Origin: Chromera velia
Taxonomy: Eukaryota; Sar; Chromeraceae
Length of the DNA: 22,762 bases
NCBI GenBank assembly: GCA_018398765.1
Contig: JAHBMJ010005949.1
Coordinates: 37,501 to 60,262, forward strand
Direction: 5' to 3'
Positions within the stretch are counted from its first letter, which is position 1. Each line of letters begins with the position of its first letter. Made by a program: the position numbers and the translations under genes. The notes under the pieces are model-generated. The model was given only the letters and a program-made list of their open reading frames with translations. It was not told where the DNA came from and did no database searches. This document shows positions 420 through 22,762 of this stretch, piece after piece.

Positions 420-3400
420 GTGAGTGGGAACAGAGGTATCGTTGCAATCAGCAATTTAGACACTTATCCATCCATGCACTTCCGTTCTGTCGATGTCCGC
501 TCCTTTCGCGAGTGAATGCATTGCCGTCGTACGATTTCTTTACACTTTTGTTTCTTTGTTCCTCGGCTAGTCTCCTAGAAGCCTCATGTCTTACATATCG
601 TTTTGTCCGTGCTCTTTTTTCTTGAACATCTGTGCCACCTCTTATCCTCGCATGGTCGTCTCCTGTAGCAATCCCAGTCATTTCTTTTAGGCCTACTGCG
701 TACCCTTCCTTCTGTCTCTTTCCTGATCTCTCGAGTGGTCCCTGTTCTCTGAATTTGACATCTAGTGGGCCCATGCTCTCTTTCTTTTTTTCCGGCACTG
801 ACTGTGGGGGTATCTGCAGGGGAAAGTGAGGGTGCCTTCTCTGAAACTGGACGTATCAGGTTGGTCGACGGGAGGGGGCTCGAGGGTGGGAGAGCAAACT
901 CAGGCGGCAAAAGCTGTCAGATCGACTGAAGGGCCGTGCGTACCTTCCGTGTCACAGGGAGAGGTTTGCGTGCCATGCTTCGGTTTCTAAATTCTGTGCA
1001 GGGATGTCCTCGCCTTTCATTCCGCTTGCGACGCATGTTTCTCAGCTCGTTACTTCTGGGCGTTCATTTGCCTCTGTTCATTTATCAACACCTCTCCGCT
1101 TATCTCTCCATCTTGCTACGTACCTACTTGATCCATCCCACCACTTATTGGCCAGAGTGCCTGTACGTGTCTGTCTCTTTCCTTTTAACGATTTCTTCTT
1201 CTCTTCACCTTCTTCCTGATTCCCTTCAATCGATCAGACTGCCGACTGAGTCCCGCAAAGGTGTTCCTTCTTCTCACCCTGTTGCCTTCTTCTGCTGAGG
1301 AGCTCAAGCTGGGTAGGCACAATTTATCTGCAGGGGGCAGAAGAGTAGTCGGTGGGGGTTGAAAGCTCTAATCAAGCTCAGAATGGTGCGGAGGGACAAT
1401 GAAAGGCAGTGGGTGGCTGTGTCATTGAAAAGAGACGGATTTTCTGTCGATGAGAGCGCGAGGATCTTTGAGGAGGAAATTTCTTAATGTGTCTCTGCTG
1501 CCCTTCCTTCGTTCTTCCACTAAAGTCGTTGTTCTCTTTCGTGTTTCTCATTTGTACCTTCTTTCTTATTCGTCTGTCTTGTCGTTTCCTCAGGAGCGTC
1601 TTCCGTGAAGGACCGCGGCTTCCCTCTTTTACATTCTTTCCTTTCACGGCTCTGGAGAGGCTCGACTCGGTTGAAGAGCTTGGCCTTCGGAGGTCAGATG
1701 GAAGGCCGGCAAGAAAATTAAGGGGGGTGCATGGGGTGGGGTGGGGAAAAGGGAGACGGAATGCAGCGTTGGAAAGTCAGACTTGGTGAGAAAGACCTCC
1801 AGGTGGAAGACAATTAACATGACCAATGGAGAAGAGGACTTCGTTCGATCATGTGACTGTGTTCGACTTCCTCGAGTCGCTTTCTCTGTCGATTGTTGTT
1901 CCCTCTGTCTGCCTGCAGAGAATTCTATCGAAGCCAACACATCTTTTTGGATTTTCTCGTCCCTTCCGCCGTCTGTCGAGAGCGTCTCTTTGAAAGGTGG
2001 GGGGACTTTTGAGAAAGTGTGAATTCAAAAGAAGTAGAGTCCTCTGTACACAGCTGCTGCATCTTGTACCAGTCACTCACCAGTGTTCTTTCTGAGGAAG
2101 TCAGGAACCCTCTTACATGTTCTTCGCATTTGCTTCCTTGGCTTGAAAGACCACTTCCGTCTTGTTGTCTCTGCGTGTTCACACACGAGACTGGGTTCCT
2201 CGCCTTGGCCCCATATTCCTGCGCTGAACCGCCAGAAATTCATTTCCTTTAATTCTGTCGTGTGACGCGGCCACGAGGGCCGATGAAGAAAGTGGACAAG
2301 TAGGTTTCAGCGCAGGCACAAAATACGTCTAAATTCCTCCTCACTGCATGTGCCTGCAGGCAACCATCACACGAGTTGGCTGAAAGGCTTGCAATCTGCA
2401 GTGGGGACGGGTGCAGTGCGTTTCTGCTTGAAGAGCCTGGTCCTGGATGACACGCAGTTAACGTCTCGGGACGTGACAGAGCTCTTCCAGACTTTCGGGA
2501 GAGCGCGGTCTTTATTGGAGCCTTCGATCAGGGTCGAGACGTTAAGTCTGTCCGACAAGGGGGCGTGCGTCCACTTTAAGGGTATTGAGGAGGTGGTCTA
2601 CACAGCGCTTTGGTACAATGCTCTCCCTTTTCTCCGTTCTGTCCAAATCAGAGGAAGCAGGGAGCTTTGGGGACGCTCGTGGAGTAGTTTTGATGAGGTG
2701 CTAGAGGCAGGGAAGTTTCGTCGTCTTGAGGTCTTGGACCTCGGAACAGAAGCCTCATTTCTGCGATCGAGCCTGAGTCTCTCAGCAGGTGAGGAGGGGA
2801 ATGCATTCAGCATTGTTGACGTTGGCAAGCTTTTTCGCAAACCGTTCGTCCCCAGGTTGAAAGTCCTTAACCTGAAAGGTCACTGGATGTATCAAAGAGA
2901 AACAGAAACCATTTTTGAGGCGTTGACCTCACATGAGAGCGCCCCTTTTGAGAGTGTGCATTTGTCTCTGATGTGGATGGATGAGAGTCATGCAAACATA
3001 ATCAAGGAGGGAGGTCTGCCTTTCTTCGAGACTTTGGGTTTGGGCGGGAGGGCTCTGAATGTCTTCGCACAATTTTGCTGCAATGATGAGCGGTATTGCT
3101 GCGAGGCGCCGCGACCCGCGCTTGAGCTTGTAGCGTCTTTCGCTTCCTTCATTCACCATTCCTTGACACCGGCCACCTGCCATGGCGTGCCTCATTGCTG
3201 CTGTTCAGACAGGAATGATTGGATCATCTCTGAACAAAATCGCTCTCCGTCATGGAGACATTCACGATCCGGCTGAACCTTTATTGCTGTCCATTTTTGG
3301 GGCCGCTCTCCCCAGCCTCACCCACCTCACTTTAGACAGTATGAAGTTGTCAGCCGACGACATAGAAGTTTTCGCGATGGGGCTCCAGGCTGGGAATTTT

Positions 3401-3880
3401 CCTGCGTTACGCTCCCTCAGTCTGCGTTCAAGCTATCATCTGGGCTCCTCGGGGTTGCGTGCGTTGATGGATGCATCAAATGAGGGGGCCCTAGAAAATC
3501 TGGAAGCATTGGATTTGGGGTGGACAAGGGTTGGAAGGGGGATGGAGTGGTTGGCAAAGTCTCTGAGAGCAGGGAGACTGTCGAAATTGAAAGAGCTCGT
3601 TCTGGACCAGTGTGAGATGAGTGACAAGAGCATGAAGTGGCTGGGGTGGTGTCTCCATCATGTTAGCCTTCCGAACCTCGAGCGGTTGAACTTGAAAAAC
3701 AGTGTAGGTAAGCATTACGGCTCGGTTGGAGCCCGGGCTTTCTGCGAGTCCCTGCGGCATGATTCTTTGCCTGCGTTGTCCTCCATTGTGGTGGACACCC
3801 CCATCGCTCCTTTCATTCGTCAGGCAATTCGGGCAGGAGTGCTTCCACCAGTGCATATCGGCAACTTTGACTTTGAATGA
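305..3880 (+). CDS. Intron-rich leucine-rich-repeat protein gene (RNI type), 5' part uncertain
   Basis: This span is read as one split gene. Leucine-rich repeats of the ribonuclease-inhibitor kind (about 28 residues, an LxxLxL strand followed by a helix, units such as LEALDLGWT and LERLNLKN) recur across the last two large exons and can also be seen in the smaller upstream pieces (VPSLKLDVSG, PPSVESVSLKGG). Such proteins are protein-binding scaffolds; no catalytic domain is visible, so the partner and process are unknown. Separating stretches are rich in C and T and end in CTGCAG or CTCAG, as introns do. The end is secure (TGA 3878-3880). The beginning is not: no convincing start codon was found and the gene may extend left of the window. 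The exon chain cannot be fixed by hand because several donor sites compete. Confidence 0.75.
820..935 (+). CDS. Candidate LRR-gene exon
   Basis: It follows an acceptor GTATCTGCAG ending at 819. The frame from 820 is open and contains VPSLKLDVSG, an LRR strand signature. GTGCGT at 936 is the donor that keeps phase with the next candidate exon at 1334 (two bases left over here, one needed there). GTACCT at 940 is an alternative donor. Neighbouring sequence on both sides is pyrimidine-rich. Confidence 0.45.
1334..1483 (+). CDS. Candidate LRR-gene exon
   Basis: An acceptor TTATCTGCAG ends at 1333. Only the frame with codons from 1335 is open, and it stays open until TAA at 1485-1487. The peptide is basic and helical in look (WGLKALIKLRMVRRDNERQ). 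The donor is uncertain: GTGGGT at 1409 and GTCGAT at 1446 are possible, so the real exon is probably shorter than the open stretch. Confidence 0.4.
1594..1785 (+). CDS. Candidate LRR-gene exon
   Basis: It begins after a strong acceptor (TTTCCTCAG ending at 1593). Two overlapping frames both look LRR-like: one gives LDSVEELGLRRS and stays open to a GTGAGA donor at 1786; the other gives STRLKSLAFGG and stops near 1710. I cannot decide between them by eye. The downstream sequence to 1918 is intron-like. Confidence 0.4.
1919..1995 (+). CDS. Candidate LRR-gene exon
   Basis: An acceptor CTGCCTGCAG ends at 1918. The frame with codons from 1921 encodes a short piece ending PPSVESVSLKGG, a clear LRR strand. 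GTGGGG near 1996 is a possible donor; the frame stops at TGA shortly after 2015. The following 350 bases are intron-like and end in TGTGCCTGCAG at 2359. Confidence 0.45.
2360..3060 (+). CDS. LRR-protein exon (large, internal)
   Basis: After the acceptor at 2359 one frame (codons from 2359) is open for about 900 bases. It carries a run of LRR strands: LKSLVLDD, VETLSLSD, LRSVQIRGS, LEVLDLGTE, LKVLNLKG and FETLGLGG, each separated by helical stretches. The repeat pattern breaks after about 3060, and a Cys-rich peptide with no LRR character follows, which suggests the exon ends near here. GTCTTC at 3061 is in the right phase to join the next exon at 3209; GTAGCG at 3130 is a second option. An ATG at 2350 sits inside the acceptor region and is unlikely to be a true start. 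Confidence 0.8.
3209..3880 (+). CDS. LRR-protein terminal exon
   Basis: An acceptor-like CATTGCTGCTGTTCAG ends at 3208; from there a frame offset by one base from the previous exon is open to TGA at 3878-3880. It encodes at least five clean RNI-type repeats (LTHLTLDS, LRSLSLRSS, LEALDLGWT, LKELVLDQ, LERLNLKN) and ends in a short acidic tail. The ATG at 3182 lies upstream of the likely splice site, so a separate short gene starting there is the main alternative. Continuity of repeat type across the gap favours one spliced gene. Confidence 0.85.
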   Translation, partial: TGMIGSSLNKIALRHGDIHDPAEPLLLSIFGAALPSLTHLTLDSMKLSADDIEVFAMGLQAGNFPALRSLSLRSSYHLGSSGLRALMDASNEGALENLEALDLGWTRVGRGMEWLAKSLRAGRLSKLKELVLDQCEMSDKSMKWLGWCLHHVSLPNLERLNLKNSVGKHYGSVGARAFCESLRHDSLPALSSIVVDTPIAPFIRQAIRAGVLPPVHIGNFDFE

Positions 3881-4140
3881 ATCCTTTTGTCCTCTTTGCA
3901 CTGTTTGTATGGTATCGTTTGAGAGCCTCTCCGGCACACTTTTTGTTTGCAAAGCAAAACCACGCCTGTATGCATGCATTCATACCTGATGGATGCACTT
4001 GCCAGTGAATCCCGTTACTTCCTGCAAGACGTCCCGTTCACAGCATTGGAAGTTGGAACTATAGTTTGGAAGTCAATCATATCGTCAGTTAAAGTTGGAA
4101 CAAACATTTAAAGTATGACTTAGTATTCAGTCAGATTACC

Positions 4141-4159
4141 TCATCATCATCATTATCAT
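4141..4159 (+). repeat. (TCA)n short tandem repeat, 5' flank of LINE
   Basis: Five TCA units, one interrupted as TTA, precede the retrotransposon. The same trinucleotide forms the tail at the element's other end (12254-12276), so this could be target DNA of the same sequence, the tail of another copy, or coincidence. Confidence 0.7.
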
Positions 4160-4162
4160 GGT

Positions 4163-4211
4163 GCTCTGATTGCTCTGATTGCTGTAAAAAATGGCTCTGA
4201 TTGCTCTGATT
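4163..4211 (+). repeat. GCTCTGATT 9-mer repeat, four copies
   Basis: GCTCTGATT occurs as two tandem copies from 4163 and two more from 4194, separated by GCTGTAAAAAATG. The arrangement lies between the (TCA)n run and the first ORF, in the position of a LINE 5' untranslated region, where tandem promoter-like monomers are known in some LINEs. A role here is only inferred. Confidence 0.7.
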
Positions 4212-4362
4212 CTCTGTAATCTGACACTTTTCCAGTCTTTTGAAGCCTAAAAATAGAGGACAACGGGGCTTGTCAATAATTGGAACCCGTCTCCCTGTTC
4301 AATCTTTTCCTGTTGCTCTCTCTGGCTCCCTCTGTCGGTGATTGTCACCCCCTGCTCCAGCC

Positions 4363-5538
4363 ATGACTGATGAAAAGCCACCCTCGTTGAGTGATGTGAT
4401 GAAAGGGCTCCAAGGACTAGCGTTGTCCTCGGAGGAAATAAAAAAGGATACCGCTGTCATCAAAGCAGATATGCAAAAGATGAACAGCGATGTCCACAAA
4501 AACTCATCCGCCATCACTGAGATCCGTACAGACCTCGACGAGGTCAGAGTCGGGATGTTGCAGGACTGGTTGGAAAATGAAAAGTAAAGCAAGAGGGAGA
4601 TGAGGGGGCAGGGAGTCATCCTGGGGATCAACTTGCAGGAAGTGGAAGTTACTCGGCCAGACGGTCGGCGTCTCCGCAGCGCTCCACAAATTCGGAGACC
4701 TGCTTCCCCCCTCCGAGTCTTCCTGGATCGTTTGTGTACGATTGCTCAGTACGACCACCCTGACTGCATCACAGAGTGGACCGTGCAGAGATTCTATCCT
4801 ACATAGAGATCGTGGGGGGGGGAGCAGTTTGAGGAAATACAGTACCGCTCTGAGCTCTCCATGCCCGAGGGTGATATGGAAGAGCTCCTCCTCATGTTCG
4901 ACCTTGCAGTCGACCGAGCGGGAGAATACCAGGATGGGCGTTTGTTGGGAGTACCACTTACCTCCTTCACTACAGAAACAGGAGGGAAGGTGGAGGATTC
5001 GATGGTTCGAATAGTGAGTGCTTCTTCACCTGTCTCGAGACTCATGAATAGAGTCAGGGCAGCTGTGAAAGCGCAGTCTGAGAGACTAGCGTCTGTCGGT
5101 TAGGACAAACTCGTGACCGCACTCGGGCCGGTCTGCGAGGATTATTTTAAAGCGATGGGCCCACCACCGAAACTCGCGAACCCGCCACGCGAGTGCGATG
5201 ACGATGGGATGACAACGCAGCTGTACCAGTTTATGGTCGATTGGCGAGCTGGAAAGTACAGGGGTCTGTGGGTTGCCGATGTCCACCGTCAGGACAACGG
5301 TGAGGCCATTGTGACACACACCGCCAACCGTCTCAGCTTCCGCCCGACACCTCCACCAGCAGGAGGTGGATTTGGGAAGAGAGGGATCTGCAGGGGGAGT
5401 GAGAGAGAGTCAAAGCATGTGAGCAGGCTCGACAAAGAGTCTCTTGAGGGCACGGGGAGATATCGCCTGCCGTTTTCTCACGTCGGCGACGATCAGACGG
5501 GAACGGGATGGGGGGGTGGACCTCTGCAGCAGCAGTAA
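4363..5538 (+). pseudogene. LINE ORF1-like protein with N-terminal coiled coil (interrupted)
   Basis: Starting at ATG 4363, the first 74 codons include a heptad-rich segment (about residues 25-65, core IKKDTAVIKADMQKM) like the trimerising coiled coil of L1-type ORF1 proteins, which bind the element RNA as chaperones. The frame continues past TAA 4585, TAG 4804 and TAG 5101 with normal-looking protein sequence (for example LLLMFDLAVDRAG, LYQFMVDWRAGKYRGLWVADV), so the stops look like later lesions. It ends at TAA 5536, directly after a Gln-rich CAG run. That last stop could be another lesion or a true ORF1 end. No RRM or CCHC knuckle could be recognised. The role is inferred from position and coiled coil. 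Confidence 0.65.
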
Positions 5539-6429
5539 CAGGTCCACAAGGCAGGAGGCATGCCGGAGACGGCTCAGTCCCCTCAGGCCGTGGCAGGGCA
5601 CTCAGCACAGAACTATGACGGAGGGGGGAGTGCGCAGCACTTCGATTTGACGAGAGCGGATAGACGTGTCTCGATAGAGAATGGAGGGGGCTTTTCCTCC
5701 TTGCCGGAAGATGAGAAAATGGAAGGAGGCGGTGGAGGGGTGACGGCGATGGCAGCACCAGCCCCAGGCGTGCCGCTGGTAAGAGGGAAAGGGGGTTCTC
5801 CTTCCTCTTGCTCCAGAATCAACCCGAGTGTCACAGTGACACCATCGTCCCCTTTTCTTCCCCCCTCCTCCCTTTTATGCAGATGGGATCAATGCCTCAG
5901 AATACAGGAACTTGGGGACAAGAACCTTAGGGAAACGGGGATTCCTGGTGAAGGGCCTCGGCTATCGGAATTACATGTATGCGCCCCCCCTCTCTCTTGT
6001 CTCTATGATGAACGCGACAGCAACCCTGGACTGCCTCCTCTCTGCTCCCTCCCTCCTCCCCCAGGCTTTGTCCCTCGATGGGACGGTCTTCTCCAGGCGA
6101 GTCAGGCGTTTGTGGGACTGAGGAAAGAGGATGAATGGAGGACAGTCAGGAGGGAAAAGAAGGGACGACAGGCTGCATGCTCGGGGGGGCGTCATTCTCA
6201 CACTCTTTCTTTTTCTCAGCTAGACAATACACATGAGGACACACATAGACAGGTCTCTTTCTCCCCATCTCGTTCATCTCTCTCTGCCGCCTCTGCCCTG
6301 TGTAAGAACAGACAAGCCGACCGGGATGGAAGACAAGATGATGAAGGGAAGCCAGAGAGGAAGAGACAGAAGAGAGTGCTAGGACGGTTCTCTCCTTCAC
6401 CTCCTGTTCCACCGTCACAAATTCATTGA
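5539..6429 (+). pseudogene. LINE linker segment, low-complexity Pro/Ser/Gly-rich
   Basis: The same frame as ORF1 continues from 5539 to TGA 6427-6429. The product is rich in Pro, Ser, Gly and basic residues, and no domain is recognised. Pyrimidine-rich blocks (for example near 5845-5880, ending in TTTATGCAG) look intron-like, so I cannot exclude that part of it is noncoding leader between ORF1 and ORF2. In favour of coding: the frame matches both neighbours exactly. Confidence 0.45.
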
Positions 6430-7536
6430 CCTGTGCACAAGTCATCTTACACCCAAAGTATGCCGGCCCTCAGGTCGGACAAATCAACAATACCCCCGAA
6501 GTCGGGGGCACGCTTTGGCTGCACACTCTCACCTTCACTCATGGTCTCTCTCCCCTTCACCAACTCTCCCGGCCCTGTCACCAAGACTGTCCCCTTACAC
6601 ACCCCTCTCCCTCCATTCATAGACAGCCCGCCACCCACAGACACTCCACCACCAACTGACACACCACCACCACCTTCCCCTTGGAAAAACAGAAAGGACA
6701 GGACTAGAATATACAAAGAAAGGCGGAGGGTGAAACAGACCGAAAGACGAAGAGTGAGGAAGGCAAGGGAAGAAACGGAAAGACAGAAGAGAGAGAGAGA
6801 GCGGGATCTCTCAGAATGGAGCTACTCTTTCTCTCCTTTCCTCCCTAAAAGAACCTTTCCTCCTTTTTCCATCCTTCTGTCTGATACATGCCTCTTTCTC
6901 TTTTTTATACGAATGTGGGGGGCGTTTGAGGGGTGGGGCTTACGAGACAACGCCACCAATTCACGTTCATCTAACCATACACCGACTCTTCCACCTCCCG
7001 TACAAACTCATTGCCTCCTTTCACCACGTATACATACGGATCACCAAACACATACACCCCTATCCTCTCACATGTTCACAAGTAAGACAACATGCACGGA
7101 CACCCCCATCTCCACTCTCATTGACGATAAATCCCGCGCCTCCTCCACACTCAGTCACCAGTATGCAGTCCCTCCTATCCCCCCTCTCTGCCCTTATCCA
7201 TCCATACCCACCCCTCTCTGCGCCGGCCTCTCATCCCCAGCGACCTGCACAGAGACGATAGAGAGAGAAGAAAGACACATCGATGCAACGCCCCTTCTAC
7301 CTCACCCCTTACCCCTTCACACCCACTCAACCCATACGCATCTCACCCAACACACAGCAGGGGGGGGGGAGCAGCAGAAAGAGAAGAGACAAGAGGGCAA
7401 GAAGTCGGCACCCCAGCGGGAGAGAAAGAAGGTAGAGGGAAAAGAAGAAAAGAAAGACAGGTCCGACTCGTCAGAAAAAGAAAAAAGAACGAAAGGGAAC
7501 GATAGGGGCGGAGGAAAGAAAGGAGGGTCGCAGAGT

Positions 7537-8046
7537 TGCTGCAGTTGTCGGGATGTTGGTGGGGGTGTGTGTGTTGGCTGCCCGTGTGCGAGGGCAGGGA
7601 CTGCATGCAGAGACTGCGACCCATTGAAGAAGGGACTGTACAGGAATTGGGATGGGAAAGGAAAAGAAAGAAAAAGAAAGAAAGGAGATGCAGGGCCTTT
7701 CCCTCCCCCTGCTGCCCCTCCCTCTTCTTCGACTTCCGCTTCCTCGTCTTCTTCTTTTTCTTCCTCTTCCTCTTCCACTTCTTCCTCCTCATCCTCCTCT
7801 TCTTCTTCTTCCTCTTCTTCTTCCTCTTCCTCCTCCTCTTCATGTTTTTCTTCCTCTTCCTCTTCCTCTTCTTCTTTCTCTTCCTCTTCCCCTCCTTCTT
7901 TCTCTTCCTCTTCTTCCTCTACGCCCCTTCACTGCTGTCCATGTAATCCGCGCGCAGCCTGTGTGACCGCTGCCTGCCCGTGTATTCGAAAAGGCGAGGG
8001 GTGCGTTTCGTACACCCCCCTTCAGAAAGGCAACTGCAAGAATGAG
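7537..8046 (+). other. Two CXC-like Cys-rich motifs flanking a poly-Ser tract (LINE ORF2)
   Basis: Motif 1 has cysteines at codons 7537, 7540, 7546, 7570, 7579, 7585, 7606 and 7615, with the core GCPCARAGTACRDC followed by PLKKG. Motif 2 has cysteines at 7933, 7936, 7942, 7960, 7975, 7981 and 8002, with the core ACPCIRKGEGC followed by PLQKG. The spacing C-P-C-x3-G-x2-C and the trailing K-G-x-x-x-N resemble the CXC zinc/DNA-binding motif of MSL2 and TSO1-like proteins. The two motifs share their trailing NGKG/DGKGKER segment, so one is a duplicate of the other. Between them lies a tract of about 65 mostly Ser codons, all pyrimidine on this strand. DNA or RNA binding is inferred. Confidence 0.75.
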
Positions 8047-8214
8047 AACGGGAAAGGGAGAGAGAGATGTTTAAAGAAAGGCAATTCTTCCGCTGTCCCT
8101 TCCTCCTTGTCGTCCTCTATTTTGTCGTCCTCCCGAGTTTTGTCTTCGTCTTCTTCCCTACCCTCGTCCTCCATCAACACCGCATCCCTTGCCGCTCTTC
8201 TCTCTGTATATGCT

Positions 8215-9165
8215 TTGAGGGTTGGAACGTACAATATCGGGGGGTTGGGAGGGAAACTAAATGATGGATCCCTTCTCTCTTTTCTTTTGACTGTCGATAT
8301 TGCCATACTGACGGAAACAAAAATGCCGACCACCAGAGTTAAGGTGGGAGGTTTTGAAGGAGAGAATTTCTCACACCGCGAGTGGTTCAGAAGAAAGATG
8401 AACGTGCACGCTGCAGCCAGAGATAAGAACGTAAGCACAGGGGGGGTGGCCATTTTGGTGCGTTCCTCCCTCATCGGTCAGTATCGTCCCACGTTTGTGG
8501 CTCCGAGCGTGGCAAAAGTTGTCTTGTGGGGAGTCCATCTGCCTTTCTATCCGGAGCCTGACGTTCTTGTGTCTTCCTCCCCTTCTGTTTTACATGTTTT
8601 CGGGTATTATTGGGTTGAGGTCAATTCGTGTCAGAGAGGTGAGATAGAGCAGAGAGCGAGAGAAAGGGAATTATTTTTGGATGCACTCTGTTCCGAATCG
8701 GTGCCACTTGAGCATGGGAGAGTGGTGATGGGGGACGTAAATGCGCATGTTCGGACGGAAATGCCCAAAGGAGTGACTTGGGTGCGTGACCCAGAGGCTG
8801 AGGAGTTGGAAAGTAGAGAAGATTTTCTAGTAAAAGGGTGGGAGAGGCGAAGCCAGTGCAGAAAGCCAGTGGTGACTGAGCAAGGGAAAGCGGTCTTGCA
8901 GATGTGTGAGCAGTCTAACATGCTCATCTACCACAGCTTGAGCAGAATCTCGCAAGGGGGGGACAGTGGGTGGAGTTCCTTTTCTGACCAGTGCACTTTC
9001 ATCGATGTCACAGAAGAAGACATTCAGAACGAAGGGAAAGGAGAGGGGACGGTCATTGACCTCACTTTGGCAGATCCATCCCTTCTCCTCACACAACCGT
9101 CCTTACACACCATCCCTATCCCCGAGAGTGCAAGTCACCATCGCGCGGTTGTCTTGGCACTTAGA
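8215..9165 (+). other. AP-type endonuclease (EEP) domain of LINE ORF2
   Basis: The domain opens with LRVGTYNIGGLGGK (the conserved Asn of motif I). It then shows ILTETK with the catalytic Glu at 8314, GGVAILVRSSL, VMGDVNAH with Asp at 8734 and Asn at 8740, TVIDLTLADPS, and finally SHHRAV at 9133-9150. EEP endonucleases of LINEs nick target DNA to start target-primed reverse transcription. The last motif is normally S-D-H; here the Asp is His (CAC at 9136). The rest of the active site looks intact. Confidence 0.9.
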
Positions 9166-9949
9166 CGGCAGCAGGATGGAAGGACAGACCACAGCAGCGA
9201 GGGAGATCCAAACCGCAGAAGTGCTTATCAGGGAAAAGCACCACAGCCAATGAGGTTAACCCTTGTGACAGACACAGACCTTTTCTGGCTAGCATCCAGA
9301 GTGAAGGCTTTCAGTGACCAGTCATGGGCCGAGCTCTGGGGGTGGGGGGAAGAGAGAGCACAGGTGATCTGCCCCATGCCTCCTCCTCCTCCTGCACCAA
9401 ACATACCTCTTATCCCCCCGTCTGAGCCGACCCCCCCTACTGAGCAGCTGCGAGTTCTGGTGAGTGAATGGGAAGTCACCCTGTCAGGGGTGAAGCCGTC
9501 GAAACCTGACTCCCAGGGAAGCGGGTGGGGGGGAGGGACAAGAAGGAGGAAAGAGAGAGCCGAGTGGTTTGACCGTGAATGTGCATGCATGAAAGCGAGA
9601 CTTCAGGAAGCGAGAAAAGAAAGAGACAGGGTCGAGAAAGAAACCGTAAGCAGGCCACAAGAGAGTCTGCTGAAGGAAGTACGTAGAGCTGAGGTGAAGA
9701 TAGCAAGAGAGACAGCAAGACTCTATAAGAAGAAAAAGAAAGCGTATAGAGAAGAAAAGTTAAAGAGACTTGCATATCACATACAGAGAGACCCGTGTCT
9801 GATCTGGAAACTCCGTCGCCGGCTGACTCTCGCTATAGATGGAAGAGACGCAGAGGGCCTGAAACCCAATGCAGGTGAGTTCACAAATTTCTGGTCGAGT
9901 GTTTTCGCGGGTCCTGGGCTCCCCCCTCTCCCCTCAGACCTCCCTGTCA

Positions 9950-11316
9950 TCCCTCCTAACTCTCCCTTCTTCTCATGGGCAGACATACAGAATGTAGTCA
10001 AGAAGATAGACCCAAGCAAGGCAGCGGGACTCAAAGGCCTGCCCCCTCAACTGATGGAACTTTGTTTTGCAACCTCCTCTCTCTTTCAACTTCTCTTGTT
10101 TGTTTTGTTTAATTTAATGTTTCTTTTTTGCGTATGGTCAAAGGGCTGGAATTCAATCCAGATTGTGCCCATGCCTAAAAGACCCCCGTGCTTAGACTGC
10201 AGAGAATAGAGACCCATCCACGTGGTATCCGCTCTTGCAAAGCTTTTTTCTTTTTTACAGGAAGGTAGGCTGAGGAAACAGACTAAGATAGACGAGAGAC
10301 AGGTGGGCTTCAGAGAAGGAGTGGGGACGAGAGAAGGAATTGCGGCCCTTGCCTCAGTGATAGAGAGTTGTGAGAAAGAAAAAAAAGCTCTACTGGGGGC
10401 CTTTGTTGATTTCAGCAAAGCTTTTGATCGCGTTCCCCGGCAGAGAATGCTAGAGAGACTCAGAGAGGAAGGGGTAGAAGAACAGGACATTCATATGGTG
10501 CATGCCATGTATGCGTCAGTGAGGGCCAGAGTAGACGGCAGCCAGACATACATCGAAGAGGGCACAGGGGTAAAGCAGGGTGATCCTTTGTCTCCTCTTC
10601 TCTTTCTTTTGTATATCAATGATCTGCATGAACGGGTAGAGAAAGGGATCGAATCGTTGGACAGACAGTAAGGCAGGGAGGGGGGGTCTGAAGGGGGGGA
10701 GGCTGTTTTACTCGCAGATTTCCTCCTATCCAGTATAGGGTACGCGGATGACCTCGTCCTTCTCTCTCACAGTAGAAAAGACCTGTAAAGAAAAATAGAC
10801 AGATTAGACAAATACTGTAGAGAGCAAGGGTTGTTGGTCAATCTAAAAAAGACGAAGATCATGACTCTGTCTTCCCGGGGGGCCGGAGAGGAAGGGAAAG
10901 TGACGTTCGATGGGAGGGTGGTTGAGTGGGTGAATGAATATAAGTACCTGGGATGCATGTTCTATAAGGGAGGGAATTTAAAAATGAGTGTAGATGCACG
11001 CCTGCAGTCAGCAACAAAGACCCTAGGGTCTCTTCAGGGCCTCCTCTCTTCTTTTGGTCCCCTTCCTGCCTCTACGAAAGTGCAGCTTTTCCGGTCGGTT
11101 TGGCTGCCTGTCGCCACCTACTCCTTGGAGGCACTCCCTCTTAGGAAACAGGACATCGACACACTGACCGCGCTGCAACTCAGATTTGTTCGTTGGGCCT
11201 TCCGTCTCCCTCACAACTCTTTCACTTCTCCTTCTCTCTTCTCTATTGGTCTGTCCTCTATGCTCTGTGTCATGCGAAGTCGTGTTGCTTCTTTCCTCTC
11301 TTCTCTTCACCTCTAA
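9950..11316 (+). other. Reverse transcriptase domain of LINE ORF2 (interrupted)
   Basis: Recognisable RT motifs, in order: IDPSKAAGLKGLPPQLM (finger region), IVPMPK, RPIHVV with the preceding codon TAG at 10207, QVGFREGVGTREGI, motif A AFVDFSKAFDRVP (Asp at 10408), motif B GVKQGDPLSPLLF, motif C YADD at 10741-10752, motif D NLKKTKIM, and YKYLGCMF (motif E). The catalytic Asp residues are present. TAG 10207 stands where the minus-strand copy has TGG, and TAA 10786 stands where it has CAA. A Gly-rich insertion with TAA 10669 precedes YADD and does not align with the second copy. Confidence 0.95.
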
Positions 11317-12147
11317 AAGCGAGACCTCCCTAAAGCAGTCCTATGTACATACAGAGGAGGGTTGTGCCCATCATTTCGTGCATCTATCAATAAGTTGCTC
11401 CCAAAAGAGACCGCCAAGCTCCTCTCTCTAAGTGAGGCAGAGGCCCACAGCGTGTGGTCACTGCAGTATGAAGATATGAGGCAAAGAGAATGGAAAACAG
11501 AAAGAGCCCTGGTAGGGAACTGGTTGAAAAGAGAAATGGCGGTCCAGACAGAAGGGGAGTGGTTGAAGGGATGGGCAGCTGAGAATGAAGACGACAACAG
11601 TTATCCAAGAAGAAACCCATCACTCTACCCACCCAACGCTGCATGCACCGCTTTCCAGAAAGCACATCCATCGAGAGAGAGATTTGCTAAACTGCTCTTT
11701 TCCACCCAACGAATCCATTCAGGAAAGAAGGTGTTGGTGCCGTGCTCTCTGCCCTCGCCCTTTCTTCAGGCAGACATTTCCATCACGCCCCTTTTGCTCA
11801 AAGTCGTGGGGGGGGGAGCATGCCATGGCAGGGTGCAGGAAAAATTGTGTGCGCGTTGTCTGGATCAAGACAGACGACCGGTTGACGATACTGTGCATCG
11901 CCTGACTGATTACATAGGGAGGAGAGAGGAGCAAGCAGCATTGAAAGCGGTAGTAAGAGAAATGAAGGATGGTCTCTCTCTTTTTGACAGGGTTACCGCT
12001 GCGCAAAGAGTGGCAGCAATCTCTAAGGTTAAAGGGGCGGGCCCAGCAGAGGTAGAAGCCTTTGAGAGCTGCTTCTTAATGCTTAATCATAAGCCGCGGC
12101 AGGGGTTTGAAGCAATAATGAGGTGCTTGAGAGAGGTGGAGAATTGA
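11317..12147 (+). other. LINE ORF2 C-terminal region with degraded zinc knuckle
   Basis: After TAA 11314 the frame stays open to TGA 12145. It contains LCARC (Cys at 11848 and 11857) followed by a His at 11896 and a Tyr codon TAC at 11911. LINE ORF2 proteins often end in a C-x2-C...H-x4-C knuckle; here the last ligand would be the Tyr, one G-to-A step from Cys. The final 60 residues are helical and unremarkable. No RNase H domain is seen. Confidence 0.7.
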
Positions 12148-12253
12148 GAGCATGCGTTTGATCTAAAATAATCGATCGATCAAACACCCTATGCATGAAT
12201 GCATGGATGAATGGACCACCCGAGCCCAACAGAGGCTAGGGGTTAAGTCTTCT

Positions 12254-12276
12254 ATCATCATCATCATCATCATCAT
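12254..12276 (+). repeat. (ATC)n tail of the LINE
   Basis: Seven and a half ATC units lie about 107 bases after the ORF2 stop, following a short 3' untranslated region. Tails of short tandem repeats instead of poly(A) are known for several LINE families. The unit is the same trinucleotide as the run at 4141-4159. Confidence 0.75.
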
Positions 12277-12278
12277 AC

Positions 12279-13080
12279 GCCATCGCTATCGGCCCATAAT
12301 AGGCGTCTAGCGTTCGGCAAGTCACAACACGCAAGGCAGATTTTTAAATGATGGACCCTTATTTCGCAACCTTTAGCAAATAGCTTAACAACTGCATTTT
12401 TTCTCAAACTCTTCCACAGTGACTTCTGGCAGGGCGTGCTTGCGTATGAGTGAGGCTGCTTCATGTGATGTTGACTCCTAGCCATGCCAAGCCACCTCAT
12501 AACGCCATCCTCTTCATTGTTATTTATTAGTACGTAGCATAGCATAGCATTGATGTTACTTATTTTAGTCTATATCTGTTTCGTAGTTTGCCCACTTTCG
12601 CTATAGCTTTTCATATTAAGCTATATCCAGTAATTAGCTTACGATCATCAATTGTTGCGCTTACGTTAGCTACAGAAAAAAAAGTCTAGAAAAAAGTAAG
12701 CTGTTTTAAGAAATCTTTTTTTATTAATATATGATTTACATAGTGGTGTTAGCCATAACTAATATAACTTTATTACATATACATGGCCTAAATTAGCCTA
12801 AAAGGCCATGCTACGTTTTATGTGGTGCATAATATAAGCTGAAATGTAAATATTACGGTTAAGGGCGTAATTTATGCAAAGTTATCCGATGGCAAGTTTT
12901 TTAAAATGGCTGTGTGCATGCAATCTAACCCACATATACATAATTAAGGCCTTTATCACATCCGTGCACAAAGCGCGCGCATGCACTCACTTGTTCAAAT
13001 ATAAAACCTATACATGTACGAATATGCATGCATGCATGTATATGCATGTATATACTCGATCGATCTAGCTATATATACGT
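12279..13080. other. AT-rich noncoding stretch
   Basis: I see no gene. Composition shifts to AT-rich right after the LINE tail. Small features: AGCATAGCATAGCAT near 12537-12550, many TAGCTA-type words (12600-12700), and a TGCATGCATGCATG run near 13025-13040. Confidence 0.6.
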
Positions 13081-18868: not shown

Positions 18869-19166
18869 ATCGGTTGTGGCGGCCGATCCTCTGAGTCTCA
18901 CAGGGTCGGCATCAAGCTCCTCATCGTCGTCATCGGCACTGCCAGGCCTGATCGGTACCCAACAGGACGTCCAGAGGGGTGATAGGCAAGAGGTGCAAGG
19001 CCTGATCGGCACCGAACAGGACGTCCAGAGGGGTCACCGTGATGGGCAAGAGGTGCAGGGCATGATCGGCACCGAGCAGGACATCCAGAGGGATGATGGG
19101 CAAGAGGAGCAGGTCGGGGGGGGAGATTCAGACACGGAGGAGGAACAAGACAACAAGAACGAGTGA
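18869..19166 (+). CDS. Terminal exon with three-unit protein repeat and acidic tail
   Basis: Acceptor GCATGTCTATGCAG ends at 18868. The frame (codons from 18870) encodes an Ala/Ser-rich start with a run of eight Ser, then three copies of a unit of 18-20 residues beginning G-L/M-I-G-T and containing QDVQRG and QEVQ, and an acidic tail SDTEEEQDNKNE before TGA 19164-19166. DNA repeat units start at 18945, 18999 and 19059 (54- and 60-nt periods). The third unit carries several conservative changes, and the second has a six-base insertion. This is an expanding-repeat, probably disordered C-terminus. The link to the 18532 exon is plausible but not proven. Confidence 0.55.
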
Positions 19167-20397: not shown

Positions 20398-21578
20398 TAA
20401 CATATTTTGAATGTGTTTTAAAAAGCTAGACGGCAAGTCGGACACGCCAGCAATAAGTAGAAACCTGGTCAAGTGGTCTGATATATAAAAATCTAGATCT
20501 AGATAGAACTTGAAATCGCCGACTCAACGACGCCGAAGAAATCGCTTAGCTGTTCAAAAAATCAATGTAATGAAATCTGTAACAAAAAAATTGAAAGTTA
20601 AAAAAAAGTTTCTAATATTTTTCATATATATGAAATAATAATAAATTAATTAGTAAATTAATAAACACCGTTCTCCAAGTCACTTAAACTATAGCACGTA
20701 TATTTTTAATTTGATCAATTATGATGATTGAGGGTTTCGCAAGTATATTTGGCCCGATTTTTGGGTTTCCGGCCCTGCTGCGTCAGTATATATGACTGAT
20801 ACATATATCATATATGGAGAGTATACAGTGGCATGCTCTGCCATGCGGGTCTAGATAAGTTTGTCTAAGTGGTCCTTCTCTTACAATTTTGAGTCTCAAA
20901 ACAACTCTACTCGATCATCGATCAATTTTAATGTAGCTTACCGTGCTGCTCACATTCTCACTTCTTGTGCATATACTGCACAGCAGTATATGTGCAACTA
21001 GATGCAAAGGTGTTTAATCATAGAATATATTTATTCACTAGTTACTCACTTTAAAAGTAATATAATCAGGAATATATTCAGGAATATATTCTTAAATTAA
21101 TTAAGGGGGGGTCCGGGGGGTGGAGCCCTCCGGGCTACCTTTTTGATTTTTTTTTTAATACAGTTTATGACTATAAAAAATTGGTTTTAAAAAAGATAAA
21201 CAGGGGCTATCTAGCTGTTAGACACTGTTAATAGGCAGTAGTATAACAGTTACTATACTAAACTGTGTTACAGTGTTACTAGAATTTTATAAAATCTTAC
21301 AATTTATAAACTTATTAAACTAGCAAATAATATATCATATGAATACCCCTTTTCATGCATTCCATTCCCCAGGCATTCTTAATTTTGGCAAAAACAAACA
21401 AATTCCCCTTCGGGGCCTGTCTTTCTGAGCTCCGAACAGGGAGAGACGTCAAAAAGTCAAGGCCTGCCCATCTGAACAGACCACTGACGGCTCGTCTTTG
21501 CTTCTGCCCCGCTGGTCCTTTCCATGCATTCAAAAGAGCCTAAAAAATACGGAGATGCGAACGGCTAAGTGCAATCTA
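20398..21578. other. AT-rich noncoding stretch
   Basis: No gene is recognised. Features: TCTAGATCTAGAT near 20492, ATATATGA repeats near 20620-20640 and 20790-20815, a GCATATACTGCACAGCAGTATATGC-like palindrome near 20969-20992, and a doubled AGGAATATATTC at 21068-21091. A minus-strand frame at 21315-21533 lies in the same frame as the end of the second retrotransposon copy, but I cannot align it to the first copy. Confidence 0.5.
21105..21140. repeat. GC-rich palindromic patch in AT-rich DNA
   Basis: Inside an AT-rich region lies G-run, TCC, G-run, TGGAGCCC, TCCGGGCTACC. AGCCC-TCC-GGGCT (21124-21136) is a perfect short hairpin, and CCGGGGGG...CCCTCCGG gives a larger imperfect one. Similar GC-rich palindromic elements are common in organelle genomes and some plastid or mitochondrial insertions; the origin here is unknown. 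Confidence 0.6.
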
Positions 21579-22762
21579 GAATGAAGCAAAACGAGCACAC
21601 AAGAGCGCACGAGTAGACATTAAATTAACAGACAAAAGAGAGGGTACACGCAAACTCCTGACCGGAAGTCGGGCCGCCCATCGAACAAACCGGAGCCGCA
21701 AGTTGTCAATCGCGCTCCCAGTCTCCCTGTCTTATTGGAAAGCACTCCAGGCTATAGAGTGCCACCGGCTCCCAGCATGCCTTCAGCAGCTGCATCTTTC
21801 CCCCGAGAGGCAACCCAGACAGACTTGCAGCCAGACCAATCACCGCCCCCATTGCATGCTCTGCACTGCGTAGGCGTGCTTCAATCGACCGAGTCAAATC
21901 TCCTCCCTCAAACAGAAGGCAACCCAAATATTTGTACTAATTACACCAGTCTACTTCCTTCCCTTGGTACAAAATCATGCCGTTACAGTCCTCGTGGTAT
22001 TCACAAAGGCGCAGGACCTTAGTTTTCTTCAGATTGACATTCAACCCCCACTTTCCGCAATACCCCTCCAGGGCATCGAATTTTGCTTGGAGGTCGGCTG
22101 CTAAGTGTGCAAATAAGACAAAATCATCAGCGTAGCCTATACTTCTCAAACTGACCCCAGCAAGGTGAACCCCCTCCGTTTTCTTTCCATCTCCCCGTTT
22201 TCCTTTCTGAATCTCATCATGCAGGTCATTAATGAATAATAAAAAAAGCGACGGGAATAACGCATCACCTTGCTTAACCCCTGCCCCCTCCGGGAATAGA
22301 GCCGAGTCCCCAATGACTCTCGCTTTCACGCCTCTATACATTGATGCAATCATCAATAGATCTCTCTTCTCTATTCCCTCAGCCTGCAGCTTTGCCAGAA
22401 GCTTCAGCCGAGGGATAGAGTCAAACGCCTTTAAGAAGTCGACAAATCCGCCCAGGAGCCCCTTCTTGCCTCTTCTGCATTCTTGTACCAAGCCTACCAC
22501 TGCTCCGATCCCCTCTCTTGTGCCCACTCCTTTCCTAAACCCGATCTGTCTGTCGTCAAAACGAGCTTGCTGACGGATTCTATCATCCATAAGGAGACCA
22601 AAGAGCTTTGCAAGAGGGTTAACGACATGGACTGGACGCCAGTCATTCGGCTGTGGCGAAGGGGGACCTTTCGGGACGGGTACAATTCTCAACAAATTCC
22701 AGTTATCAGGCCAACACGCATATGCATGCATTAAATTAAAGAAAACAAACAAAAGGAAGCGA
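21579..22762 (-). mobile_element. Second, diverged LINE fragment (reverse transcriptase), minus strand, runs off the right edge
   Basis: The minus strand encodes a reverse transcriptase closely like that of the large LINE: IVPVPKGPP, NDWRPVHVV, QIGFRKGVGTREGI, motif A GFVDFLKAFDSIP, motif B GVKQGDALFPSLF, YADD, NLKKTK and YKYLG. More than half the residues match by eye over the core. The frame is open to the window edge, broken by TAG at 21937-21939. It then shifts by one base near 21713, where a second frame continues with IDNLRLRFVRWAARLP and a TAG at 21576-21578. Beyond that the match to the large copy is lost, so the fragment appears 3'-truncated. Confidence 0.92.
21940..22762 (-). pseudogene. 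Reverse transcriptase fragment of second LINE
   Basis: This is the longest intact piece of the second copy, from the right edge to TAG 21937-21939. All RT catalytic motifs A to D are present. Motif B reads GDALFPS where most LINEs and the first copy have GDPLSP, which may weaken template or primer handling. It keeps Trp in NDWRP and Gln in DLQAKF, at the positions where the first copy has TAG 10207 and TAA 10786. The first codons at the edge (FLLFVFFNL) also align with the first copy, so the element continues outside the window. Confidence 0.92.

Follow-up and report, generated by a model that had tools for sequence, protein, structure and literature searches.

Elements of the ingi/L1Tc type are APE-type non-long-terminal-repeat (non-LTR) retrotransposons with one long open reading frame (ORF). 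In Neurospora, repeat-induced point mutation (RIP) has a minimum length of about 400 bases. Here we analyse a stretch of DNA from Chromera velia, an algal relative of the Apicomplexa: a window of 22,762 nucleotides (contig JAHBMJ010005949.1 of assembly GCA_018398765.1; position 1 is its first letter), the plus strand of which holds a full-length, now dead copy of a non-LTR retrotransposon, or long interspersed nuclear element (LINE), 8,113 bases long and with a single decayed frame.

The passages on RIP in a 2022 review (PMC9246332) place it in fungi, chiefly the Ascomycota, and call it the one case known so far in which the mutagenic effect of cytosine methylation is put to use, though it may have evolved elsewhere too. 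As treated in parts of PMC4352252, fungal RIP (RID/Masc1) and CpG-type methylcytosine deamination leave an excess of C>T and G>A in repeats on both strands; the same excess is found here, with a preference for CG and then CA that resembles the mix described there for Tuber melanosporum. Unlike in fungal RIP, the host carries light-harvesting complex (LHC) genes and is not a fungus, and no length threshold was seen. Symbiodinium, likewise an alga of alveolate type, has methylation-silenced LINEs with their own DNMT that are also under C>T pressure, according to sections of PMC5890265. CG depletion is argued there for the DNMT-bearing LINEs, whereas changes outside CG dominate here (380 of 540), and no DNMT domain was matched when pieces of the element were searched in Pfam. 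For C. velia, the genome figures in PMC4501334 include about 30 Mb of transposable elements, in 193.66 Mb and 5,953 scaffolds.

Mutations and age of the copies

We searched the genome (177.8 Mb, 4,040 contigs) for copies and took as reference set 20 others of the element's own family, 21 with the window copy. A change was counted as private where one copy differs and all other covering copies agree, in columns with at least three copies; positions 7735-7935 and those from 12240 onwards, in the tail, were excluded. In the window copy there are 111 private substitutions, of which 47 are C>T and 49 G>A, together 96. Over all 21 copies C>T and G>A make up 540 of 633 private changes; the others are 47 transversions and 46 reverse transitions (A>G, T>C), giving a transition to transversion ratio (Ti/Tv) of 12.5, and the strands are equal, with 272 C>T and 268 G>A. 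The rate per C depends on the following base, at 0.060 in CG, 0.034 in CA, 0.014 in CC and 0.015 in CT; CG (160 of 2,647 sites changed) differs from the remainder (380 of 18,924; p 1e-27), and CA from CC and CT combined (p 3e-16). Measured against four young copies, the last 1.4 kb shows 318 changes, and C>T or G>A accounts for 280 of them, at 0.0314 per C/G site versus 0.0021 A>G/T>C per A/T site; CC (0.024) and CT (0.022) are in this comparison nearer to CA (0.032). The C>T hits are distributed evenly along the window copy. The distribution of private changes over the three codon positions is that expected from C/G content (p 0.19), indicating no selection on the copies, which decay neutrally, mostly by C>T and on both strands.

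Distances among 16 copies (1,030 columns) form a star, with four young copies (L044, L046, L048 and L050) 0.1-0.4% apart near its centre. At all 36 informative sites C or G is the majority base and T or A the minority, and the four-gamete test is failed by 222 of 630 site pairs, which points to recurrent hits at the same sites. The copies thus radiate from a nearly unchanged source, and the near-identical young copies provide a built-in clock and reference. Changes other than C>T are also scarce in the young copies, at 1 in 4,328 sites versus 61 in 28,282 in seven older copies chosen as long or much changed (p 0.002), and seven long copies show no clear difference in the proportion of C>T to other changes (p 0.07). 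Together these results indicate that the C>T load grows roughly with age.

The frame itself is as the sequence-only reading described it: 2,594 codons with nine internal stops (4585, 4804, 5101, 5536, 6427, 10207, 10669, 10786 and 11314; five TAA, three TAG and one TGA), whereas the remaining plus frames contain 108 and 106 over the same interval. Among the copies, 48 codon columns carry a stop somewhere, and only at 4585 (one of two copies) is it present in half or more; four young or short copies have no stop in frame, and the internal stops of the window copy, almost all of them private, are not those of most of the 20 other copies. Codons 10207 and 10786, which the earlier reading had checked against the minus-strand element, are sense in four of four and eight of eight other copies, respectively. 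Because they are private to copies, the stops are lesions and not recoded codons, and the terminal stop at 12145 is conserved in all 17 other copies that cover it. These comparisons support the single-frame ancestor proposed earlier, in which the source element kept one open frame of about 2,594 codons from the ORF1-like N-terminus to the C-terminal side of the reverse transcriptase (RT); codons 1-269 of this reconstruction come from one (codons 1-77) or two (codons 78-269) other copies.

The proposal that every stop arose by a G:C to A:T change stands for seven of the nine. Given the measured spectrum, about seven stops are expected in this copy (6.4 by C>T/G>A and 0.6 by other changes) and seven plus two were seen, so that nine stops are ordinary for a copy of its age. 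That stops are its only lesions does not hold, since the 111 private substitutions are accompanied by four in-frame indels. These are 12, 6, 6 and 6 bases long relative to every other covering copy. Over all copies, 7 of 10 small indels are in frame (p 0.02), a count that leaves out the serine tract (three indels), the tail and a 901-base tandem duplication in one copy. The survival of the frame is explained by the rarity of small indels compared with C>T. Indels of exactly 6 bases recur, in 5 of the 10 events and without flanking tandem repeats, at the three sites in the window copy and near 10581 and 11360 in copy L036. Slippage was rejected as the origin of the four window indels, none of which is a change in a tandem repeat.

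The minus-strand element at 21400-22762, initially read as a second copy of the same family, is a different, related one (65% identity over the single 252-base DNA alignment found; 45-55% amino-acid identity in the RT) and was discarded as a reference. It has a YADD RT and over 40 genome matches at 92-97% identity, and in the window its frame is interrupted by one stop or more. As a second LINE family, sampled by this element and 10 of the best full-length matches out of at least 43, it shows the same decay: C>T and G>A make up 143 of its 166 private changes, a share not different from that of the first family (p 0.82), with rates of 0.056 in CG, 0.038 in CA, 0.017 in CC and 0.016 in CT. The deamination-like process suggested from the sequence alone is well supported by these counts; the decay is established in two LINE families and, thinly, in a 260-base repeat, with 12 of 17 changes in this class among 10 fetched copies and the window copy. 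For genes, we compared six LHC regions, picked by similar scores or lengths out of 58 light-harvesting matches and with coding constraint not removed. Between close pairs, transitions and transversions number 5:8 in L083/L085, 16:5 (L080/L081), 8:0 and 5:1 in the L080-L082 cluster, and 4:6 and 3:7 in short stretches with L084. Although mixed, the LHC values are overall below those of the element, and on this small control the decay likely targets repeats.

Origin of the C>T decay

We consider it probable that these copies are silenced by cytosine methylation and that their C>T changes come from deamination of 5-methylcytosine. After insertion, copies would be methylated most at CG, less at CA and least at CC and CT. 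As a copy ages, deamination would add C>T to both strands at a roughly matching pace; the stops would be the visible part of this decay, and the frame would outlast it, small indels being rare. An active process of the RIP type, one that would detect duplications and mutate the cytosines within them in bursts, would give the same excess of C>T and G>A in repeats, and the Ti/Tv of 12.5 lies well above both the Arabidopsis transposable element family mean of 1.2 and the value of 2 above which the relevant part of PMC4352252 takes families as RIP-like, a rough comparison because consensus sequences were used there. CA as the second context, and a signal present in three repeat families and weaker in LHC paralogs, would also suit it. 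On the other hand, five short copies of 300-434 bases, four of them below 400, carry as heavy a load as long ones (27 of 29 changes C>T/G>A, 0.0323 per C/G site, versus 34 of 37 and 0.0341 in five long copies over the same region), the load tracks the other changes and does not come in bursts, and CG leads, not CA. Given the equally affected short copies, the even spread and the lead of CG, passive methylcytosine deamination fits better than RIP of the Neurospora type, and we regard a RIP-like process as quite unlikely.

A C>T bias of the whole genome, or weak repair in heterochromatin, acting without methylation could account for the rise of C>T in all contexts, CC and CT included, and for the two transition-rich LHC pairs. 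However, the spectrum of the element would take GC content to an equilibrium of 9%, versus 35-53% in five other stretches of the window (of which 1900-4100 alone is shown to be single copy); the LHC pairs L083/L085 (p 1.6e-6) and L080/L081 (p 0.02) differ from the element, and the excess at CG is left over, which makes this explanation unlikely. Editing of the cDNA by an APOBEC-like deaminase during reverse transcription would yield the excess of C>T and G>A, but the symmetry of the strands, in the window copy as in the family, leads us to reject it, and the young copies carry few changes; we give it very little credence. A profile search with APOBEC_N gave no match above the cut-off, as did the control genomes, and is uninformative. 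Ultraviolet damage at pyrimidine pairs shares the C>T class and is rejected as highly improbable on sequence context, a pyrimidine before the C not being preferred (0.0242 vs 0.0263). The frame, otherwise intact over 7.8 kb, might suggest readthrough in life, which the earlier reading had allowed, or recoding; since the copies differ in which codons have become stops, with 4585 the one column in which stops reach half and four copies free of them, this too is rejected and seems scarcely credible.

Several observations weigh against methylation and deamination as we propose them. Sites with three or more hits number 18, versus about 7 expected under a Poisson distribution, which leaves room for hot spots or a degree of shared ancestry. 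Stops 4585 (one other copy covering) and 6427 (four of four others) are transversions; two or more stops from changes outside the C>T/G>A class have a probability of 0.12. Two of the three pairs in the L080-L082 cluster are nearly all transitions, so that genes and repeats do not contrast cleanly. Furthermore, a six-frame search of the genome with PF00145 found three C5-methyltransferase loci above the cut-off, two of them DNMT2-like and one an unclassified fragment, in an exon-by-exon search that can miss genes. For loci C3982 and C1092, DNMT2 is the best match among solved structures (1.2e-32 and 5.2e-28). The third, C675, had been considered DNMT2-like on account of a motif in a neighbouring frame, a reading we rejected: a search with the 44 residues around this motif returned no methyltransferase, and the C-terminal exon matched DNMT2 no better than at E 0.035. 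A DNMT1-RFD profile search was silent in the control genomes as well and is uninformative, and no RID/Masc1-type gene was identified among the three PF00145 loci, no query aimed at RID having been made. PMC9246332 describes DNMT2 chiefly as a methylase of tRNA. Hence a DNA methylase escaped the search, or the decay is the work of a DNMT2-type enzyme or of some other process. That the alga mutates its LINEs to death by C>T at CG and non-CG sites alike, with no C5-methyltransferases found beyond the DNMT2-like and unclassified ones, either through DNA methylation of DNMT2 type powerful enough to mould LINE evolution or through a RIP-like defence outside fungi, is a tentative and rather doubtful suggestion.

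Structure of the element and its surroundings

The RT and the APE endonuclease upstream of it, both in one frame, together with the copies' shared 3' end and variable 5' truncation, the pattern of target-primed LINE copies, assign the element to the APE-type non-LTR retrotransposons as judged from its sequence (Table 1). A direct repeat pair flanking the element was sought and none was found, consistent with the lack of LTRs. The RT has YADD at 10741, stop 10207 lies immediately upstream of it, and its closest solved relatives by sequence are R2 proteins. The positions of the endonuclease motifs were read from the sequence, and no endonuclease was matched when the region was compared by sequence with solved structures. 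An ORF1 protein of L1 type has a coiled coil, an RRM and a CTD; the ORF1-like part here had no Pfam match above the cut-off and gave a useless AlphaFold2 model (mean pLDDT 34.6); a low-complexity stretch separates it from the endonuclease. As in ingi/L1Tc-like LINEs with one ORF, endonuclease and RT follow in frame, copies are 5'-truncated and the tail is a simple repeat. Unlike in those, the frame runs to about 2,594 codons, its N-terminal half is ORF1-like and of low complexity, and R2 proteins are nearest to the RT. The dead copy is thus an ordinary LINE in most respects, but its single frame is unusually long. Long frames appear to occur in related elements too, by frame length alone: the genome holds 111 endonuclease matches, 104 outside the family, and seven of these lie in frames 1,200 residues or longer (longest listed, 2,202).

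Table 1 Features of the element in the window, with the evidence for each
Feature	Position	Strand	Evidence
5' flank, ATC/ATT tract at insertion point	4139..4163	+	flank comparison
Non-LTR retrotransposon, full length	4164..12276	+	5' start of copy L034 is 4164, with different flank; 16 of 20 other copies extend to 12275 or 12276
5' untranslated leader	4164..4362	+	in-frame TGA 4339 upstream of ATG, in window copy and L034
Decayed single frame of 2,594 codons with nine internal stops, ending in TGA 12145	4363..12147	+	frame scan, codon columns
ORF1-like N-terminal part; stops 4585, 4804, 5101, 5536	4363..5538	+	restricted to copies of own family (4 places in genome)
TGA stop, transversion vs 4 of 4 other copies	6427..6429	+	codon columns
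12 extra bases in other covering copies, in frame	6812..6813	+	copy alignment
Two presumed cysteine-rich motifs (7534-7623, 7933-8019) flanking serine-rich TCTTCC tract (7747-7913)	7534..8019	+	no Pfam match
APE-type endonuclease domain	8224..9150	+	Exo_endo_phos E 2.8e-6, above cut-off (at 8200-9300)
6 bases missing in window copy, in frame	8494 and 8964	+	copy alignment
6 bases missing from other covering copies, in frame	8692..8697	+	copy alignment
RT domain, interrupted by stops 10669 and 10786	10210..10959	+	RVT_1 E 4.2e-18 and 6.3e-4, two pieces
TAA stop downstream of RT	11314..11316	+	sense codon in 15 of 15 other copies
(ATC)n 3' tail	12252..12276	+	copy comparison

Of the 18 copies scored (3 of 21 left out), 9 have an ATC tract at their 5' junction, namely the window copy and L035, L036, L037, L042, L043, L045, L047 and L052, versus 2.7% of background 30-base stretches (p 3e-10, a rough value because background stretches overlap and the scored stretch takes in 6 element bases). 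This suggests that the element may insert into trinucleotide microsatellites, with priming by its (ATC)n tail. The 901-base tandem duplication, at 8057 in L034, is either real or an assembly artefact.

Directly 3' of the element, the 260-base repeat (12254-12515; 16 of 42 matches listed) begins in an ATC tract. Elsewhere in the window, 2287-3880 is an open, single-copy, gene-like stretch that resembles a leucine-rich repeat protein, and 18940-19111 holds 3.1 copies of a 54-base tandem repeat, possibly coding, its unit length being in frame.

A possible defence against retrotransposons outside fungi

Among openly accessible papers on methylation in Chromera and chromerids, and on RIP in alveolates or algae, we found no report of such decay. 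The C>T bias in several repeat families may be a sign that copies of jumping genes are subject to DNA methylation or some comparable defence. Strong decay of LINEs by C>T, equal on both strands, in an alga related to the Apicomplexa would bear on whether RIP-like processes evolved outside fungi.

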